Below, in pieces: positions 55,179 to 63,337 of a stretch of DNA of 64,000 nucleotides (its first letter is position 1; every line of letters starts with the position of its first letter). Where the stretch lies: NCBI GenBank assembly GCA_910575605.1, contig CAJTEW010000015.1, forward strand, positions 1 to 64,000, given 5' to 3'. The notes under the pieces were generated by a model, which was not told the DNA's origin, searched no databases, and saw nothing but the letters and a program-made list of their open reading frames with translations. Both the position numbers and the translations under genes were made by a program. The stretch comes from Lachnospiraceae bacterium (GTDB lineage Bacteria; Bacillota; Clostridia; Lachnospirales; Lachnospiraceae).

Positions 55179-55299
55179 TTGGGGACGGGGTAAAATGAAA
55201 AATACCCCGTCCCAGATGGAGAAAAGGGTGTCCCCAAGATATGGGGACAGGGTAAAATAAATCTGGGACGGGGTATTTTTCATTTTACCCCGTCCCCAA
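55179..55299. repeat. Composite GGGGAC-family inverted repeat inside the V-ATPase operon
   Basis: Outer arms 55179-55217 and 55261-55299 are 39-bp exact reverse complements. An inner hairpin TGTCCCCA/TGGGGACA occupies 55229-55249. It lies between ntpB and ntpD, so the long hairpin is probably transcribed in the operon mRNA and could reduce or process the downstream message. Confidence 0.9.
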
Positions 55300-56086: not shown

Positions 56087-56107
56087 TATTATCCACAAAA
56101 AAGCAAA

Positions 56108-56255
56108 AAGTACACTATTTGATAATCCTTTTATTTCTGTTACCCAAGTGAAATATACTACATGATAGACAAAAAGTCAAGAGCACCCGGGTGTATTCCT
56201 CTGTTAATTTTGCCCATACCTTTTTATTTCTCCGGGATTATCAAATAGTGTACTT
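56108..56255. other. Candidate invertible promoter (phase-variation switch)
   Basis: The 21-bp perfect inverted repeats AAGTACACTATTTGATAATCC (56108-56128) and its reverse complement (56235-56255) flank 106 bp. The enclosed segment carries a strong promoter that at present points left, away from the TnpB-like gene 11 bp downstream and toward two terminators. Inversion would aim it at the TnpB-like and polysaccharide genes. Such architecture is known for phase-variable promoters in Bacteroides and Clostridioides. No recombinase is encoded in the window, so it would have to act in trans. Confidence 0.65.
56152..56180 (-). promoter_or_regulatory. Promoter inside the candidate invertible segment
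   Basis: Minus strand: TTGACT (56180-56175), a 17-nt spacer and TATATT (56157-56152). Each box matches the vegetative consensus in five of six positions. No comparable promoter faces the + strand in this segment. Confidence 0.7.
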
Positions 56256-56266
56256 ATTGAAGCGAA

Positions 56267-57586
56267 ATGTCATCAGAGACGATATGTAAAACAGTTCATC
56301 AATATAATAAAAAACCGATTTCGACAGAAGAAATGGAAAAACTTATAGAGATTGCAGAAGACTATAAGAAAGTAAAGAATTATGTATACTCACGTTTTGG
56401 AGGAATCGGCGGTCTGTCAAAAATATATCCTGGCTATACAGCACAGAATGAAATGACAAAAAGCGGTCTTCGTTTAAAGCTTAAGATGCCCTCTGCTTAT
56501 TTCTATCTTGCGGTATTTGATGCATTAGGGGATATTAAAAGTCAATGGACACGAACAAAATCGAAGATTTTGGAGCTGATTAATAAGAATGAAAATTTTA
56601 CTGCAGATGAGAAGCACTATCTTCGATTTTTGCTGAAAGTGAGTAATGCGTTTGAACAGGTATTAATTGGCAGAGAGATTAGACTTAAAAAAGAAATAGA
56701 TGAACAGTACACACTTTTAGCAGAAAAGATAGATACCGGAAAGCTGCATCGATATCTGTGTAGACAGGTTCGAAAATATCATGTAAAACAGCATACTGAA
56801 AAAGCAGAAGGGTTTTCTATTTCTGAACGCGCATATCGATACGCAGATCATGGAATTTATATTTCCATAAAAGAGAAGAGAAAACGTATTTTTATTCCCC
56901 TCACAGACAACAATCGGTACAAGACCCAGCTTTATATAAGTCTCTATCCAGAAAAGTGCAATATAGAGATAAAAGTACCTTTGTATGTGTCAGTGCAAAA
57001 ATTTGAAGACTATACGCGTCAAGTAGGAATTGCCATGGGAATGTATACAATGCTGACAACGGATGAAGGGCATTGTTATGGAGAAGAGTTAGGCAGGTAT
57101 CAGATAGCATATGCAGACTGGCTGAGAATCCAGGCAAGGAGCTACAGCCTTAACAAGGAGCAGAATCCTGGGAGAGAAAAATATAAGTCAAAAAGGCGGA
57201 AACTTCAGGAGCAGCTGCACAATTATATTAACCATGAACTGAATCAGTTTCTCCAGACAGAAAAGCCAGAGAGTATTTATATTGTAAAGTTACCTAAACC
57301 GCAGGCCGGAGGAATGAATAAAGAAATAAACAATTCTGTTACTAAGTGGCAGAGAGGATATATCCGTAAACGTTTGGAACAAAAGTGTAAAGAGCAGTCA
57401 GTTGAAATCGTAGAAGTTCTTGGAAAAGATATCAGCAATGAATGCAGCAGATGCGGAAAAATAGGACAAAAGTCAGAAGGACGATTTGTATGTCCTGCAT
57501 GCGGTTATGATATCCAGGAAAAAGTGAATACTGCCCGTAATGTAAAAAAACGGGGGCAGGGCGAAGGGATATTATATCAGTCATAA
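56267..57586 (+). CDS. TnpB-like protein with inactivated RuvC site (TldR-like)
   Basis: 439 aa. The C-terminal third aligns with the RuvC and zinc-ribbon region of TnpB/Cas12-type proteins. The first RuvC motif, usually GIDLG, reads GIAMG. The second, usually an Ile-Glu-Asp-Leu strand, reads YIVKLP. The third, usually RDxNAAxN, reads EKVNTARN. All three acidic residues are therefore lost, while the zinc ribbon CSRCG...CPACG is intact and the N-terminal RNA-binding helices are long. No TnpA, transposon ends or target duplication are seen. Nuclease-dead TnpBs described as TldRs act as RNA-guided repressors. No strong ribosome site precedes ATG 56267. It is the first gene after the candidate invertible promoter. 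Confidence 0.8.
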   Translation: MSSETICKTVHQYNKKPISTEEMEKLIEIAEDYKKVKNYVYSRFGGIGGLSKIYPGYTAQNEMTKSGLRLKLKMPSAYFYLAVFDALGDIKSQWTRTKSKILELINKNENFTADEKHYLRFLLKVSNAFEQVLIGREIRLKKEIDEQYTLLAEKIDTGKLHRYLCRQVRKYHVKQHTEKAEGFSISERAYRYADHGIYISIKEKRKRIFIPLTDNNRYKTQLYISLYPEKCNIEIKVPLYVSVQKFEDYTRQVGIAMGMYTMLTTDEGHCYGEELGRYQIAYADWLRIQARSYSLNKEQNPGREKYKSKRRKLQEQLHNYINHELNQFLQTEKPESIYIVKLPKPQAGGMNKEINNSVTKWQRGYIRKRLEQKCKEQSVEIVEVLGKDISNECSRCGKIGQKSEGRFVCPACGYDIQEKVNTARNVKKRGQGEGILYQS

Positions 57587-57605
57587 GAACAGCCATTTAG
57601 ATAAA

Positions 57606-57840
57606 TTTCGGTGATAAGCCGAGATTTTACCGAAAGGACTAAAGGTGCAGGTTCATGATATAAAAACAATTTACGGCATTAGAAGGCAGTGATTCAGAAC
57701 TTTTCTGAAGGCTGCGCATTGGGTATGCCAGGACCTTGTGAACATGCCAGTTAGACGGAAAGCCGAAAGCTTATGCATGACGTAACAGGGAGCGAAGCAG
57801 AGTAATCTGCATCATCCGACAGAATGTTTCTTGGGGATGA
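57606..57840 (+). ncRNA. Structured RNA candidate, possible guide RNA of the TnpB-like protein
   Basis: The 308-bp gap after the TnpB-like gene has no reading frame but many nested stems: TTTCGGT/ACCGAAA (57606-57635); GGCAT/ATGCC (57675-57729) enclosing GCAG/CTGC and TTCAGA/TCTGAA; GCAGA/TCTGC (57797-57810); and TCATCC/GGATGA (57812-57840). TnpB guide RNAs are made from exactly this position, with the guide at the 3' end. The bases after 57840 would be the guide. I found no matching target in the window. A riboswitch-like leader of the next gene is the alternative. Confidence 0.45.
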
Positions 57841-57894
57841 CCAATGTGCCTTATTTTATAATGGAGAAAATTATAATTATATTAGGGAGAAAAA

Positions 57895-58611
57895 ATGGCG
57901 AAAGCGTTAATATTTGCAGGAGGATCCGGAAGGCGGATGAATTCCCGTTCAAAACCGAAACAATTTTTGGAAATGCACGGAAAGCCTATTATTATTTATA
58001 CACTGGAGCACTTCGAATATCATGAGGAAATAACAGAAATTATTGTAGTATGTATTAGTGAATGGATAGAAGAATTAAAAGTACTTTTGGGGCGCTATGG
58101 GATAAGAAAAGTTTCTACAATTATTCCGGGCGGAGAGACAGGACATGATTCTATCCGGTTAGGGCTTGAAGCAATGAAGACTGACACAGCTGATGATGAA
58201 ATTGTACTTATTCATGACGGAGTACGTCCGTTGATTAATGCAGAACTAATAAGTAAGAACATAGAAGAAACTATAAAGTATTGTAATGCTATTACAGTAG
58301 AGTCAGTCAGAGAAAGTGTTGTACAGTGTGCAGACGGAGAAAAAATTACAAATGTGCCGCCGCGTGAACAGATGTATATCGCAAAAGCTCCTCAGACTTT
58401 TTATTATAAAAATATTTTAAGGCTTTATGAAAAATCCGTGGAAGATGGTATACGCTCCATAGATTCCGCACATTTATGCAGTCTTTATCATGAGCCTATG
58501 CACATGGTAAAGAGTACCAAGAACAATATAAAAATAACAGAGCCTGTAGACTATTATATTTTCAGGGCTTTGTATGAGGCGATAGAGGGGCAGCAGATAT
58601 TTGGAATATAG
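57895..58611 (+). CDS. IspD/TarI-like sugar-alcohol phosphate cytidylyltransferase
   Basis: 238 aa nucleotidyltransferase. The CTP-binding start ALIFAGGSGRRMNSRSKPKQFLE, VLIHDGVRPLI and AKAPQTFYY are shared by IspD and TarI. Location in a polysaccharide operon rather than with isoprenoid genes favours a TarI-type enzyme that makes CDP-ribitol or a similar CDP-polyol for surface polymers. AGGGAGA precedes the ATG. A TATAAT box at 57857-57862 could give it a separate promoter. Confidence 0.85.
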   Translation: MAKALIFAGGSGRRMNSRSKPKQFLEMHGKPIIIYTLEHFEYHEEITEIIVVCISEWIEELKVLLGRYGIRKVSTIIPGGETGHDSIRLGLEAMKTDTADDEIVLIHDGVRPLINAELISKNIEETIKYCNAITVESVRESVVQCADGEKITNVPPREQMYIAKAPQTFYYKNILRLYEKSVEDGIRSIDSAHLCSLYHEPMHMVKSTKNNIKITEPVDYYIFRALYEAIEGQQIFGI

Positions 58612-58624
58612 GGAGTGTTTGGAA

Positions 58625-61210
58625 ATGTCATATAAAAAGAAGGAATTGCTTGGAATTATCGCTTCACTGCAAAAGATAAATGAAGCCTTTGAAAGCGGAT
58701 GTAATTTAGATATGACAGCAGCGGCGGAGGCACTGGCAAATTGTCAGGAATCAGCAATAATGGTTGGAAATAGTGTAGAAGCCTATGGAGAGCCGGGGGA
58801 AGAAATTGTCCATATCTTAGAAGAATACTGTGAAGGTATTTATCAGATGAGCATTTCGCTTGGTGATACAAATCAACGAAAAAAAATATCTAAAAAGATT
58901 CAGAAACAATTATTTCAGGTCAGCAATAAAATTAAATATTCTTTACCGGATAACAAGAGAGTTATTCTTTTTTTGCCATATAAGGCAGCTATGTGGGACA
59001 GTATGGAAAGTATATGGGAAAATACAGCCAATGATGAAAGTTGTGAGGCTCATGTAGTTCCCATTCCGTATTTTGAAAAGAAGCCTGATGGTTCGTTTGG
59101 AGAGATGTTTTATGAGGGAGATCTATATCCAGATTATGTATCTGCGATTGGATGGGAGACATATGATCTGGAGAAGAATAGACCCGACGTAGTTTATATA
59201 CATAATCCATATGATAATTGTAACAAGGTGACAAGTATTCATCCTGATTTTTATATAGAAAGATTAAAAAATTATTCAGATCAGATAGTATATGTACCAT
59301 ATTTTTCAACGCTTAGTTTTGTGGAAAAGCATTTCTGTGTGGCTCCGGGAACATTGTATGCGGATAAGGTCATTGTCCAGACAAATAGTATAAAGAAGAT
59401 TTACCAAAAAGCAATAAGAGAGTTTGAAAAAGAAAATGGCTGGCCTAAAAATTATTTTCACGAGAAGGAAAAGTTTCTGGTATACGGAAGCCCAAAGCTT
59501 GACAGAGCACTGCATTTAAAGGACAGAGACTATGAAATTCCAGATGAATGGAAGAACATCGTTTATCAAAGCGATGGAAGCAGAAAAAAAGTAATTCTAT
59601 TTAATACATCTGTACAGGAATTACTTTTATATGCAGAGCAGCAGTTGGAAAAAATAAGGAATGTCATTGCTTTATTTCAAAAGGAGCAGGATGTTGTGCT
59701 CTTATGGAGACCTCATCCGCTTAACGAGAGTACGGCGAAGGCAATGCTTCCGCATATTCTAAAGGAGTATTTGGAGATTAAGCAATCCTTTAAGGAATTA
59801 AAAATTGGTATTTTAGATGACACTCCTGACTTGTACAGGGCCATTGCGGTCAGTGATGCTTATTATGGGACTGGAGGATCATTGATAACGCTTTATGGGC
59901 TTACTGGAAAGCCCATTATGAGGGAGAATACAGAGATATTGGATTTAGAAAAAGGAAATGTAAATCGTTATGCGGCTTTTACCTATGCACATATAGAGTC
60001 AAATGGAACTTTGTGGTTTAGCAATATGGAGTTTAACAGCCTTTTCTTTTACGATATCCAGGCAGATAAATTAACATGGAAAGGAATGTTCCCTAATGAA
60101 CTATTTTATAGAAAACATATTTATTCAAAATATATAAAATACAAAAATAAATTAGTTTTTCCACCCTTTGCAGGTAATGAAATCGCTATTTACGATATGG
60201 ATAAGGAAGAATTTAAAAAAATATTGATTGAAAGAGAAGGAATAAAAAAAACACAATTTTACGGTACGGCAGTTTATGGTTCCCGTTTTTTTGCCTTTGG
60301 AGCAGAGCTTGGGGTAACTGTAATTATGGATATGGATACGTTTGATATAACATATCAGGAAGATATGTATAAAGAACTGAAGAAATACTGCACATATACA
60401 GACAGCTACTTTATAGGAGCTGATGTGGTGACGGTAGATAGTATTTGCTATCTTTTTTCTAAAAGAGCAAATATTATTGTAGAATTTCACATGGATGATC
60501 TGACTTATAAGTTTTGGACTATAGGAGGTAAGAGGGACCGATTTCAAAGCATGCAGAAATTCAGGGATAAAATATATTTGTTTCCTAAAAGTGGTAATAA
60601 AATTATTTGCTGGGATTTTCATAAAGGCACCGAATATGAGATTGTGAGTCCAGATCCAGATATTCAGTTAGATAATGCCTATAATTACAGTTGCGAATAT
60701 GATGACGAATTATATTTATTTGCTTTTTTAGGAAATCACAATGCTAAAATTCCGAGAGGAAGAGAAGAAATAGAGATTATAGAAAAAGATATAGATGAAT
60801 ATGGGCAGGACGGACCAATAGAGATTGATATCAATTCTTTTCCAGAACAGAAAATATCATGGTCATGCACTAAAGGAGATTATATCTACTATTTCTCGAC
60901 TATGAACAAGATGCTTTATATAAAAGATATGAAAACAGGGCAGCTGGATAAAAGGCATTTATTAATTTCAAATGAAGACTTTGCCAAATTAAGGAAAGAA
61001 TGTTTGTTCTGGAATCGGGAAGAATGTACTACTTCAATGCAATGTATCTATAAGGAAAATATAAAATTAACATTAAGCGATTATGTTGAATGGTTAAAAG
61101 GACATAACACTTTAATATCAGAAAATCAAAGGAGACTGTTTTTACAGGAGAATGCGGAGAATCATGATAATTGTGGAATATTGTGTCATCAAAAAATTAA
61201 TTTGGCCTAA
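58625..61210 (+). CDS. Glycerophosphotransferase/GT-B-like enzyme fused to a beta-propeller
   Basis: 861 aa from ATG 58625, which follows AGGGAG; an in-frame TTG at 58601 lies inside the upstream gene. Residues about 100-445 resemble the CDP-glycerol glycerophosphotransferase/GT-B fold: DVVYIHNPYDNCN, YGSPKLDRAL, VVLLWRPHPLNES and DAYYGTGGSLITLYGLTGKP. From about 450 to 780 the protein consists of repeated beta blades (KLVFPPFAGNEIAIYDMD, KIYLFPKSGNKIICWDF, DYIYYFSTMNKMLYIKDM) like a six-bladed propeller. No signal peptide is present. The fusion is unusual. The propeller may hold acceptor glycan or a partner. Confidence 0.7.
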   Translation: MSYKKKELLGIIASLQKINEAFESGCNLDMTAAAEALANCQESAIMVGNSVEAYGEPGEEIVHILEEYCEGIYQMSISLGDTNQRKKISKKIQKQLFQVSNKIKYSLPDNKRVILFLPYKAAMWDSMESIWENTANDESCEAHVVPIPYFEKKPDGSFGEMFYEGDLYPDYVSAIGWETYDLEKNRPDVVYIHNPYDNCNKVTSIHPDFYIERLKNYSDQIVYVPYFSTLSFVEKHFCVAPGTLYADKVIVQTNSIKKIYQKAIREFEKENGWPKNYFHEKEKFLVYGSPKLDRALHLKDRDYEIPDEWKNIVYQSDGSRKKVILFNTSVQELLLYAEQQLEKIRNVIALFQKEQDVVLLWRPHPLNESTAKAMLPHILKEYLEIKQSFKELKIGILDDTPDLYRAIAVSDAYYGTGGSLITLYGLTGKPIMRENTEILDLEKGNVNRYAAFTYAHIESNGTLWFSNMEFNSLFFYDIQADKLTWKGMFPNELFYRKHIYSKYIKYKNKLVFPPFAGNEIAIYDMDKEEFKKILIEREGIKKTQFYGTAVYGSRFFAFGAELGVTVIMDMDTFDITYQEDMYKELKKYCTYTDSYFIGADVVTVDSICYLFSKRANIIVEFHMDDLTYKFWTIGGKRDRFQSMQKFRDKIYLFPKSGNKIICWDFHKGTEYEIVSPDPDIQLDNAYNYSCEYDDELYLFAFLGNHNAKIPRGREEIEIIEKDIDEYGQDGPIEIDINSFPEQKISWSCTKGDYIYYFSTMNKMLYIKDMKTGQLDKRHLLISNEDFAKLRKECLFWNREECTTSMQCIYKENIKLTLSDYVEWLKGHNTLISENQRRLFLQENAENHDNCGILCHQKINLA

Positions 61211-61224
61211 ATGGGAGAACCATA

Positions 61225-62337
61225 ATGAAAAAGAATATATATGTTGTTAAGCCATCATTACCACCCCTCGAGGAATTTGTAAGAGAAATAGAGGATATGT
61301 GGGAAACTGGTATCATGACTCATCAAGGCCCGAAACATAATAAGCTTCAGGCTGAGTTAGAAAAATTTATGGAAATGCCAAATGTAACGTTATTTGCAAA
61401 TGGGCATCTGGCATTGGAGCTAGGGCTGGAATCACAAAAAATGACTGGAGAAGTTATAACTACTCCGTTTACTTTTGGATCGACAACACAGGCAATTTTA
61501 AGAAATAAACTCAAACCAGTTTTTTGTGATATCAGGGAGGATGATTACACAATAGATTGTGACATGCTGGAAAACCTAATTACTGAAAAAACATGTGCGA
61601 TTGTTCCGGTTCATGTTTATGGAAATATATGTGATGTGGAAAGAATTCAGAAAATTGCGGAGCGCTTTAAGCTAAAAGTTATTTACGATGCGGCACATGC
61701 ATTTGGAGAGCTGTATAAAGGCAAGCATATTGCGCAATTTGGCGATATGTCTATGTTTAGCTTTCACGCAACTAAGGTACTAAATACAGTTGAAGGCGGC
61801 TGTCTGGCATATAAGGATGGAAGTAAAACACAATATTTAGAAGGCCTCAGACAGTTTGGACAGATTGTACATACTGATTCGGTTCCATATATTGGAACAA
61901 ATGCAAAAATGACAGATATGCATGCGGCAATGGGGCTGTGTAATTTGCGGCATGTCCAGGAATATGTACAAAAACGAAAAATGGTAGTCGAAAGATATAT
62001 AAGACATTTATCTGGTATTGATGGAATTAAGCTAAACAGGATTCAAAAGGATGTTGTATCAAATTACGCGTATTTTCCAGTTGTATTCGAAGAAAAAAAT
62101 TCAGGAATAACCCGGGATATGGTGATGAAAAGATTAGAGGAACATCATATTTTTGTTAGAAAATATTTTTATCCATTATGCAGTGATTTTGAATGCTGTA
62201 AGGAAATAGGAATACAGGCAGATGTTCCGGTTGCCGCTTATATGTCGGAGAGAGTCCTTACATTGCCATGTTATTCTGAGTTAGAGCTTGAAGATGTTGA
62301 TTATATATGTGATGTAATTAAAAGAATGTATGTATAA
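61225..62337 (+). CDS. DegT/DnrJ/EryC1/StrS family aminotransferase
   Basis: 370 aa PLP enzyme. TTPFTFGSTTQAI, YDAAHAFG (Asp155) and FSFHATKVLNTVEGG (Lys184) are the family signatures. It aminates a keto-sugar nucleotide. Together with the following oxidoreductase and the 2,3-dehydratase it suggests synthesis of a deoxy-amino sugar for the surface polymer. 14 bp separate it from the preceding gene. Confidence 0.93.
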   Translation: MKKNIYVVKPSLPPLEEFVREIEDMWETGIMTHQGPKHNKLQAELEKFMEMPNVTLFANGHLALELGLESQKMTGEVITTPFTFGSTTQAILRNKLKPVFCDIREDDYTIDCDMLENLITEKTCAIVPVHVYGNICDVERIQKIAERFKLKVIYDAAHAFGELYKGKHIAQFGDMSMFSFHATKVLNTVEGGCLAYKDGSKTQYLEGLRQFGQIVHTDSVPYIGTNAKMTDMHAAMGLCNLRHVQEYVQKRKMVVERYIRHLSGIDGIKLNRIQKDVVSNYAYFPVVFEEKNSGITRDMVMKRLEEHHIFVRKYFYPLCSDFECCKEIGIQADVPVAAYMSERVLTLPCYSELELEDVDYICDVIKRMYV

Positions 62338-62371: not shown

Positions 62372-63337
62372 ATGATTAGACTTGGAATCTTAGGCTGTTC
62401 AGATATTGCATTCCGGCGATTTATGCCTGCGGCCAGGAAAATACGAGATATAAAAACGATTGCAGTAGCAGAGGAATATAACAAAGCAAAATTGGACGGC
62501 TTTTGTAAAGAATACAACTTAGAAGGCGGAGACAGCTTTGAAGAATTGATTATGCGGAAAGACATTGACGCAGTGTATGTTCCTTTGCCGCCGGCCCTTC
62601 ACTATATGTGGGCCAAAAGAGCTTTGGAATGTAATAAACATGTGTTAGTTGAGAAGCCATCCACAGTTCAATATTCCCAGAGTAAAGAACTTGTAGATTT
62701 GGCAGACCAAAAGAAGCTTGCTCTACATGAAAATTATATGTTTCAGTATCATTCCCAGATTAGGGAAATTAAGAAAATGCTTTCAGAGGGAATAGTTGGA
62801 GATGTCCGTCTTATAAAGGCTAACTTTGGCTTTCCCAGAAGGAATGAGAATGACTTTAGATATAATAAAGAATTAGGCGGAGGAGCATTGCTTGATGCTG
62901 GAGGATATACAGTTAAGCTTGCTATGATAATGCTGGGGGACACTATAAAGGTAGATATGGCAAAGCTCAACTATCTGCCAGATTTTCATGTTGATATATA
63001 TGGAAGTGCTGTTTTATCAAATTCACAAGGAACAGTCTGTCAGATTGGATACGGCATGGACTGCGCTTATCAGTGCAGCCTTGAAATCTGGGGAAGTAAA
63101 GGAAGGCTGTATACTAATAGAATATTTACAGCCCCTGAAGAATACAGGCCGCAAATTATAGTTGAGTCAGGCAGTGAGGTGAGAAATATTGACTTAGAAC
63201 CTGATTCTCATTTTCAACATTCAATAGAGCAGTTTTTGAAAGAAATTAAGGAAACTAATCATAGGGAGGAAATGCATAAAGGAATTCTGCTGCAGGCGAA
63301 ATTAGTAGATGACATCAGAAGACTTGGAGCAAACTAA
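62372..63337 (+). CDS. Gfo/Idh/MocA family sugar oxidoreductase
   Basis: 321 aa. The N-terminal Rossmann motif LGILGCSDIAFRRFMPA is followed by the family signature EKPSTVQYSQ with the conserved Lys, and a C-terminal alpha/beta domain (GGGALLDAGGYTVKLAM). Such enzymes reduce 3-keto-sugar nucleotides after 2,3-dehydration in deoxysugar pathways, which matches the next gene. Cytoplasmic. Confidence 0.92.
   Translation: MIRLGILGCSDIAFRRFMPAARKIRDIKTIAVAEEYNKAKLDGFCKEYNLEGGDSFEELIMRKDIDAVYVPLPPALHYMWAKRALECNKHVLVEKPSTVQYSQSKELVDLADQKKLALHENYMFQYHSQIREIKKMLSEGIVGDVRLIKANFGFPRRNENDFRYNKELGGGALLDAGGYTVKLAMIMLGDTIKVDMAKLNYLPDFHVDIYGSAVLSNSQGTVCQIGYGMDCAYQCSLEIWGSKGRLYTNRIFTAPEEYRPQIIVESGSEVRNIDLEPDSHFQHSIEQFLKEIKETNHREEMHKGILLQAKLVDDIRRLGAN

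Follow-up and report, generated by a model that had tools for sequence, protein, structure and literature searches.

A nuclease-dead TnpB homologue in a Lachnospiraceae glycan operon: a candidate TldR clade for RNA-guided cross-silencing of phase-variable surface operons

The window operon and its TnpB-like first gene

The window is the whole 64,000-nucleotide stretch at positions 1 to 64,000 of contig CAJTEW010000015.1, from a Lachnospiraceae bacterium (assembly GCA_910575605.1). Near its end lie a tldR-like gene, an adjoining guide-RNA scaffold and sugar-related genes, preceded by a pair of inverted repeats (Table 1). The tldR-like gene has an ATG start and 439 codons without an internal stop. 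In the Pfam scan its product matched PF07282 (Cas12f1-like_TNB) above the cut-off (E = 3.8e-10); it also matched NF040570 (guided_TnpB) at E = 6.9e-15, yet under that model's curated cut-off. Its PDB sequence matches were distant and were to Cas12f and TnpB-like chains. From the context, we infer that the cytidylyltransferase downstream is of the CDP-ribitol type. The 869-aa ORF, which we take to resemble glycerophosphotransferases of CDP-glycerol polymers, has three further homologues in the window's genome, two of them at the other tldR loci (loci 2 and 3, below).

Table 1. Features of the window locus and of recurrent proteins at other loci (the latter in locus coordinates)
Feature	Position	Strand	Basis or remark
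Left inverted-repeat arm	56104-56128	.	25 nt, 96% complementary to 56235-56259, 106 nt between
Sigma70-like promoter TTGACT-17-TATATT inside the inverton	56152-56180	-	Directed away from tldR
Right inverted-repeat arm	56235-56259	.	Pairs with 56104-56128
tldR-like gene (nuclease-dead TnpB homologue, 439 aa)	56267-57586	+	ORF, Pfam, alignment, pN/pS
Codon A256, replaces first RuvC Asp	57032-57034	+	Alignment with intact TnpBs and homologues
Codon V340, replaces RuvC Glu	57284-57286	+	Alignment with intact TnpBs and homologues; PDB comparison
Codon K419, replaces last RuvC Asp	57521-57523	+	Alignment with intact TnpBs and homologues; PDB comparison
omegaRNA-like guide-RNA scaffold	57581-57843	+	Covariation, covariance model; model R1 matches 57673-57851
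13-nt guide ATGTGCCTTATTT	57844-57856	+	Limits from target matching; match may reach ~57863
IspD-family cytidylyltransferase	57895-58611	+	PF01128, E = 3.3e-39
869-aa ORF	58601-61210	+	No Pfam match; one of four homologues in the window's genome
TAM-like motif AGTAT	59287-59291	+	Pattern search
Candidate target ATGTACCATATTT inside the 869-aa ORF	59292-59304	+	Guide matching
DegT/DnrJ/EryC1 sugar aminotransferase family	61225-62337	+	PF01041, E = 9.6e-90
GFO/IDH/MocA oxidoreductase	62372-63337	+	PF01408, E = 7.5e-19
171-185-aa proteins	L186 12994-13548; L213 12498-13043; L225 4750-5289; L297 6253-6777; L299 10777-11289		

Two intact TnpBs of related genomes served as alignment references, L026 (RuvC motifs GVDVG, ITIEDLN and RDFNASLN) and L029 (GIDLG, ITIEDLN and RDYNASLN). 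At the same aligned motifs the window protein reads GIAMG, YIVKLP and EKVNTARN. In this alignment the D-E-D RuvC triad of the active TnpB nuclease is absent from the window protein and from 37 full-length homologues. None of the 37 has an acid at residue 256 (A20/S16/Y1), 340 (V17/P11/A8/I1) or 419 (K33/R3/S1), and the zinc-ribbon residues C393, C396, C409 and C412 are invariant in all of them. The preliminary description, made from the window's sequence, had claimed that all three RuvC acids were replaced while the Cys4 ribbon stayed intact, and had suggested looking for the substitutions in homologues; both claims stood, and the substitutions proved to be conserved at all three sites. It had also raised the possibility that acids elsewhere complete the RuvC site, and here the outcome was mixed. 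No acid was found at the aligned positions, but E62, D214 and E332 are conserved outside them in 37 of 37 homologues and E324 in 35 of 37. One of these conserved acids may act as a substitute within the RuvC site in three dimensions.

Of 41 loci extracted, 37 gave clean full-length proteins, which correspond to 35 distinct loci because two were fetched twice (L009 = L041 and L012 = L048). The remainder are L049, which is apparently frameshifted, L020, with one in-frame stop, and the partial L024 and L035. Values of pN/pS in 11 homologue pairs of our own choosing were 0.07-0.32, a sign of purifying selection, which argues that the tldR-like protein is maintained and is no relic. The earlier judgement that the open frame is not a decayed pseudogene was borne out, and frameshifts were indeed rare among the homologues.

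Among 397 genomes of the family, 25 had a tldR match. Eighteen of these reached E = 5e-32 or better, among them G342, with only a partial copy. The other seven were weak (E = 3e-5 to 9e-4), and the two of them that we checked were intact TnpBs. A second, separate collection held 17 tldR loci. Three are present in the window's genome: locus 1, that of the window, locus 2 at C15:84800 (77% against the window) and locus 3 at C16:58290 (59%). Sporofaciens musculi, a cultured gut commensal, has eight tldR matches, one of them a short fragment. The operons that follow its tldR genes encode nucleotidyltransferases, sugar dehydratases, epimerases and glycosyltransferases, as read from the translations, with Pfam support for a few of the first genes.

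Neighbourhoods were scanned with motifs in 59 regions, each covering up to 3 kb before and up to 8.5 kb after tldR and shorter at locus ends. None of the 59 matched a crude Y1-transposase motif, so by this criterion no TnpA lies alongside; the neighbouring genes identified are non-transposon host genes. Family members at L247 (G057), L221 (G367) and L211 (G405) have a flagellin gene upstream.

Guide RNA and upstream inverted repeats

The conserved 5' end of the guide-RNA scaffold overlaps the tldR stop codon. RNAalifold, run on 29 sequences, gave 43 consensus pairs, 30 of which have at least one compensatory double change. The covariance model matched the window RNA at E = 5.5e-28, a value to be read with the window sequence itself in the training set. 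The model found 72 matches, with hits in all 28 genomes searched; the doubled matches at several RNAs arise from internal repeats. In the window's genome there are three, one per tldR locus. Three weak Rfam matches all fell under the gathering score, and none overlapped the guide RNA.

Most RNA copies end alike, in a final hairpin with ACCA and AT[AG]T[AG][CT][CT][AT]TATT after it, beyond which the sequences diverge. An RNA bound by the protein would be predicted to end 13-20 nt past ...GATGACCA. Two other placements of the guide start, at TTATTT and then at CC, were dropped: searching the window's genome with 16-mers told little (130 matches vs 93 for the reversed control), and an anchored scan gave no clear excess (mean best 9.84 vs 9.25 for other-genome controls).

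Several RNA copies have no adjoining protein match (G398 C6:77673, G398 C1:250561, G283 C52:152541, C52:261294, C42 and G408 C86:9354), and others adjoin broken tldR fragments (G398 C1:90278, G404 C69 and G367 C4). Copies of this kind, placed as they are without an intact neighbouring protein, may be trans guides. Tandem repeats occur inside the RNA, between tldR and guide, at L177, L180, L185, L188, L191 and L213, with units containing ...GCGCACGCAGGTCATCAACCTGCGGTTGGTGACAAGA... or similar; in this they recall the csrA-TldR guide, an RNA cut by RNase III, with its enlarged stem-loop (PMC13418256). Elsewhere in the window, at 55192-55286 between ATPase genes, a long near-perfect hairpin looks like a small repeat element; against Rfam it gave sub-threshold microRNA matches alone (E 0.17-0.21).

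Inverted-repeat arms comparable to those upstream of the window gene were found at 14 of 39 loci, a count in which one locus figures twice (L012 = L048). None of 156 dinucleotide shuffles produced such arms. The promoter search within the window inverton found one promoter vs a shuffle mean of 1.6, which alone is insignificant. When 14 inverton spacers were compared (13 of the armed loci plus the weaker L003), 11 had their best outward promoter at a common offset, 48-57 nt from the distal end. The inverton of L047 has a promoter TTGATA-17-TAAAGT at offset 54 directed toward tldR, together with a second, different promoter-like match directed away from it. Promoter direction is a soft call, with the strands tying in L008 and L037 and the toward-tldR strand scoring higher in L003. 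These placements would fit two inverton orientations, and by its promoter the window inverton is apparently OFF in the assembly.

A tyrosine-recombinase motif lies nearby in 13 of the 59 regions, and nine of these have it on the same strand, no more than 320 nt upstream. Five of the 59 match a crude motif for serine recombinases. No recombinase motif was seen in the motif scan of the window's region. Such a recombinase may flip the segments upstream of tldR. The upstream region of L040 (G398 C11), about 400 nt from tldR, has another feature: a 79-bp inverted repeat takes in the tldR start, and upstream there is what appears to be an inverted copy of the early tldR coding sequence. This arrangement may be a switch choosing between two divergent operons.

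Candidate target sites and their fit to guides

The first clues to targets came from comparing each RNA end with the remaining loci of its genome, which brought up the match of the locus 2 RNA end to the window (below) and that of an S. musculi guide to another locus's leader. In the DNA fetched to that point, the 12-nt core occurred 70 times outside RNA ends, 21 times directly after AGTAT and 5 times after AGTTT. We searched for AGTWTATRTRYYWTATT, an AGTWT TAM plus 12 nt, with the reversed pattern as a control. AT-rich motifs readily give chance matches. The 28 genomes with the gene or fragments of it held 42 exact matches vs 12 reversed, and in the 397-genome sample the pattern occurred in 11 of 18 gene-bearing genomes vs 39 of 379 others (Fisher p = 7e-7), both results being partly circular because the pattern was derived from genomes that carry the gene. 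At least one match was present in 22 of the 28. By hand count, pattern and reversed-pattern matches numbered 17 and 3 where the gene is present but 47 and 60 where it is absent, which puts genomes lacking the gene at background.

Eleven of the 42 sites lie inside glycan-polymerase-like ORFs of the 869-aa type, at a Y-x-P-Y motif. Twenty-six of the other 31 are 27-205 nt 5' of a same-strand ORF, and the rest are farther off, at an ORF start, on the opposite strand (L292) or at a contig end (L287). Relative to their operons, the 11 sites within ORFs and most of those in leaders have sense orientation, so that a guide would pair with the template strand; transcription is also blocked well by dCas12a when it pairs in this way. 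The excess of targets in polymerase genes distant from tldR was insignificant (9/31 vs 2/23, p = 0.09).

We scanned 26 distinct first proteins downstream of sites outside the polymerase ORFs; 16 match glycan- or sugar-type Pfam families above cut-off and 10 have no match above it, a count that has no random-gene baseline. The families are IspD, nucleotidyltransferase, NKWYS capsule, GT2, LicD, SIS, DegT, transketolase, methyltransferase, cytidylyltransferase-oxidoreductase, DUF1919, FGGY kinase and, the least specific, PAPS-reductase. Also recurrent after target sites are unnamed 171-185-aa proteins, each with a single hydrophobic segment (Table 1); they may make up a surface fibre system that is controlled in the same way.

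Guide-target fit is specific to the genome. Over nt 1-13, same-genome foreign guides fitted the 42 sites with a mean of 11.40, vs 10.83 (sd 0.15) for equal numbers of guides drawn from other genomes, a value reached in 0 of 5000 permutations; an earlier test with fewer guides agrees. Over nt 14-20 there was no same-genome excess (1555 of 5000 permutations). Together these results suggest a working guide of about 13 nt. The best foreign guide fitted 13/13 at 8 sites, 12 at 17, 11 at 7, 10 at 6 and 9 or 8 at 4; that is, 12 or 13 of 13 at 25 of 42 sites and nothing above 10/13 at 10 of 42.

Two hold-out genomes were also examined. In G408, two targets were found by the pattern before the guide, which when found later fitted them at 13/13 and 12/13 (by hand). 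In the congener G410, two new loci have an RNA end and, by eye, inverted repeats, and they share one guide, ATGTGCCTTATTTTAAA; no target site for it occurred in the 55 kb examined with one mismatch allowed.

At the window's own site, 59292-59304, the guides of loci 2 and 3 fit 12/13 and the window's own guide 11/13; the RNA end of locus 2 matches from 59292 at 17 of 19 positions. This site in its operon is the best one for the own guide, with two mismatches. No clean TAM and target for ATGTGCCTTATTT was found in the draft genome, where one could be missed among the 92 contigs, and its genome matches numbered 4 vs 4 for the reversed control. A second TAM and target in the same genome (G000 C12:208-224) is cut by a contig end; the guides of loci 2 and 3 fit it at 11/13, mismatching at positions 5 and 6. 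A match of the locus 1 guide in a locus 3 gene was dropped, having three seed mismatches and GATTT instead of AGTAT.

Proposed mechanism, alternatives and relation to known systems

TldRs are established RNA-guided repressors. We read the present loci as a new TldR clade that would carry out RNA-guided cross-silencing of phase-variable surface operons. At the sequence level this reading is supported by the loss of the triad, the conserved protein and RNA, the inverton-type arms and the genome-specific guide-target fit. With tldR and its guide behind an apparent inverton, and with guides matching other surface operons, the system probably helps to keep rival coats off. We think it likely that the dead TnpB and guide of an inverton-switched glycan operon serve the mutual exclusion of surface coats.

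We infer a course from co-transcription through complex formation and binding to roadblock repression and exclusivity. A domesticated nuclease-dead TnpB of the TldR type would be the first gene of a phase-variable surface-glycan operon. With the inverton ON, one transcript would give the dead TnpB, the adjoining guide RNA and the glycan enzymes. The RNA-protein complex would then form, bind AGTAT and a target of about 13 nt in the leader or early gene of other operons, and block their transcription as a CRISPRi-like roadblock. As guides tend to mismatch the site in their own operon, the active operon would be spared and its rivals silenced. In the window's genome, the guides of loci 2 and 3 would act at 59287-59304 in the window operon.

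A TldR-type RNA-guided binder could instead serve feedback or dosage control, for instance by shutting a common step, and not coat exclusion. Some of the operons that contain a site do lack a tldR and guide of their own, one guide is common to the two G410 loci, and the self-avoidance statistics are modest (p = 0.039 against random own-guide choice and 0.10 with one site per genome, weak alone). However, among the 10 sites that have an own guide RNA ahead of them, nine are fitted better by a foreign guide and one equally well. In three S. musculi loci a site lies 35-64 nt beyond the start of the locus's guide, and two of the three guides fail to match their own site at positions 5 and 6, at which the guides of other loci are perfect. 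We consider feedback or dosage control unlikely.

It is more doubtful still that the protein, bound to its own RNA, acts at a post-transcriptional step, the likeness of guide and site being a relic of leader duplication. Such a relic would agree with the AT-rich core common to RNA 3' ends and downstream sites and with the eight sites found 27-72 nt past a guide start, but the preceding sequences differ (scaffold GACCA before guides, TAM AGTAT before sites), 11 of 42 sites are coding sequence, and the fit of guide to target is genome-specific and ends at 13 nt. Slightly less probable again is an RNA-guided activator, antiterminator or inversion-control factor in place of a repressor. Leader sites could serve activation, and the inverted repeats adjoin; against such roles, 11 of 42 sites lie deep inside ORFs, suiting a roadblock, and the Pfam scan saw no fused activator domain in the 439-aa protein. 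A decaying TnpB without function is hardly credible, for although all catalytic acids are lost and broken copies exist elsewhere (L049, L020 and fragments), pN/pS is 0.07-0.32, 37 of 41 loci are intact and the RNA covaries.

The central suggestion of the preliminary description, a TldR-like nuclease-dead TnpB in a Lachnospiraceae polysaccharide locus, is favoured by the lost acids, purifying selection, covarying RNA and TAM-flanked matches. It had missed the guide RNA and inverted repeats, as well as the cross-targeting and the sister loci 2 and 3.

The closest parallel is with the csrA-TldRs of Oscillibacter and Flavonifractor, in which a dead TnpB and adjoining guide RNA are linked to csrA, fliC and hin and target flagellin (PMC13418256). 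They have promoter-bearing DNA inversions of ~120 bp upstream, several loci per genome with predicted cross-targeting, targets inside ORFs and an enlarged RNA stem-loop (PMC13418256). The window family resembles them in its dead TnpB and guide, predicted multi-locus cross-targeting, putative upstream inversions, in-ORF targets and enlarged stem-loop, and differs in that its neighbours and predicted targets are mostly glycan operons, its guide is ~13 nt and a tyrosine-recombinase motif is near tldR more often than a serine-recombinase one (13 vs 5 of 59 regions). The promoter-bearing upstream inverton shared with the csrA clade is represented here by the arms at 14 of 39 loci. None of the 59 regions matched a crude CsrA motif near tldR. 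A flagellin motif lies upstream in 3 of the 59, so the two clades may be related. The fliC-TldR of Enterobacter phages is likewise a dead TnpB that represses a surface-antigen gene by RNA guidance, but it is prophage-borne, targets host flagellin and is not known to have a multi-locus glycan-operon network (PMC13418256).

The TnpBs of IS200/IS605 and IS607 and Cas12f share with the window protein the family, the Cys4 ribbon and an RNA directly 3' of the gene; the window family differs in lacking the nuclease triad and, by the crude motif in 59 regions, a Y1 transposase. Cas12m is a noncleaving Cas12 relative that silences by binding (PMC10442227), but is a CRISPR effector against invaders, and its PDB chains are only distant sequence matches. 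A functional analogy may be drawn with Bacteroides, where UpxZ, encoded by a capsule-operon leader gene, shuts nonadjacent capsule operons by contact with UpxY antiterminators (PMC7315117). UpxY and UpxZ would resemble tldR as leader genes with trans-locus shut-off and differ in working by protein contact, where an RNA guide and a DNA target would act here (PMC7315117). No polysaccharide-linked TldR was found in the literature searched, an incomplete search in which an earlier mention is possible. The novelty lies in the clade itself, in glycan operons serving both as home and as target, in so short a guide, in a tendency to leave the own operon's site alone and in loci that hold a guide RNA with no protein.

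In Bacteroides the choice of a surface coat is made by protein antiterminators and their inhibitors (PMC7315117). If cross-silencing by the tldR loci is true, gut Firmicutes would settle on a single coat in a different way, by base pairing, which could be rewired by point mutation in a 13-nt guide, and phase variation would be tied to domesticated transposon nucleases. More tentatively, there may be a chromosome-wide RNA-guided exclusion network in gut Lachnospiraceae, in which every inverton-switched surface operon silences the others through its dead TnpB and 13-nt guide, seed mismatches spare the own operon, and guide-only loci that have lost the protein feed trans guides to a shared one; if true, this would be a self-made analogue of a CRISPR array aimed at the cell's own antigens. 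The function of TldRs would be widened beyond flagellin if our reading is true, and which operon silences which would become predictable in many strains, some of them cultured.
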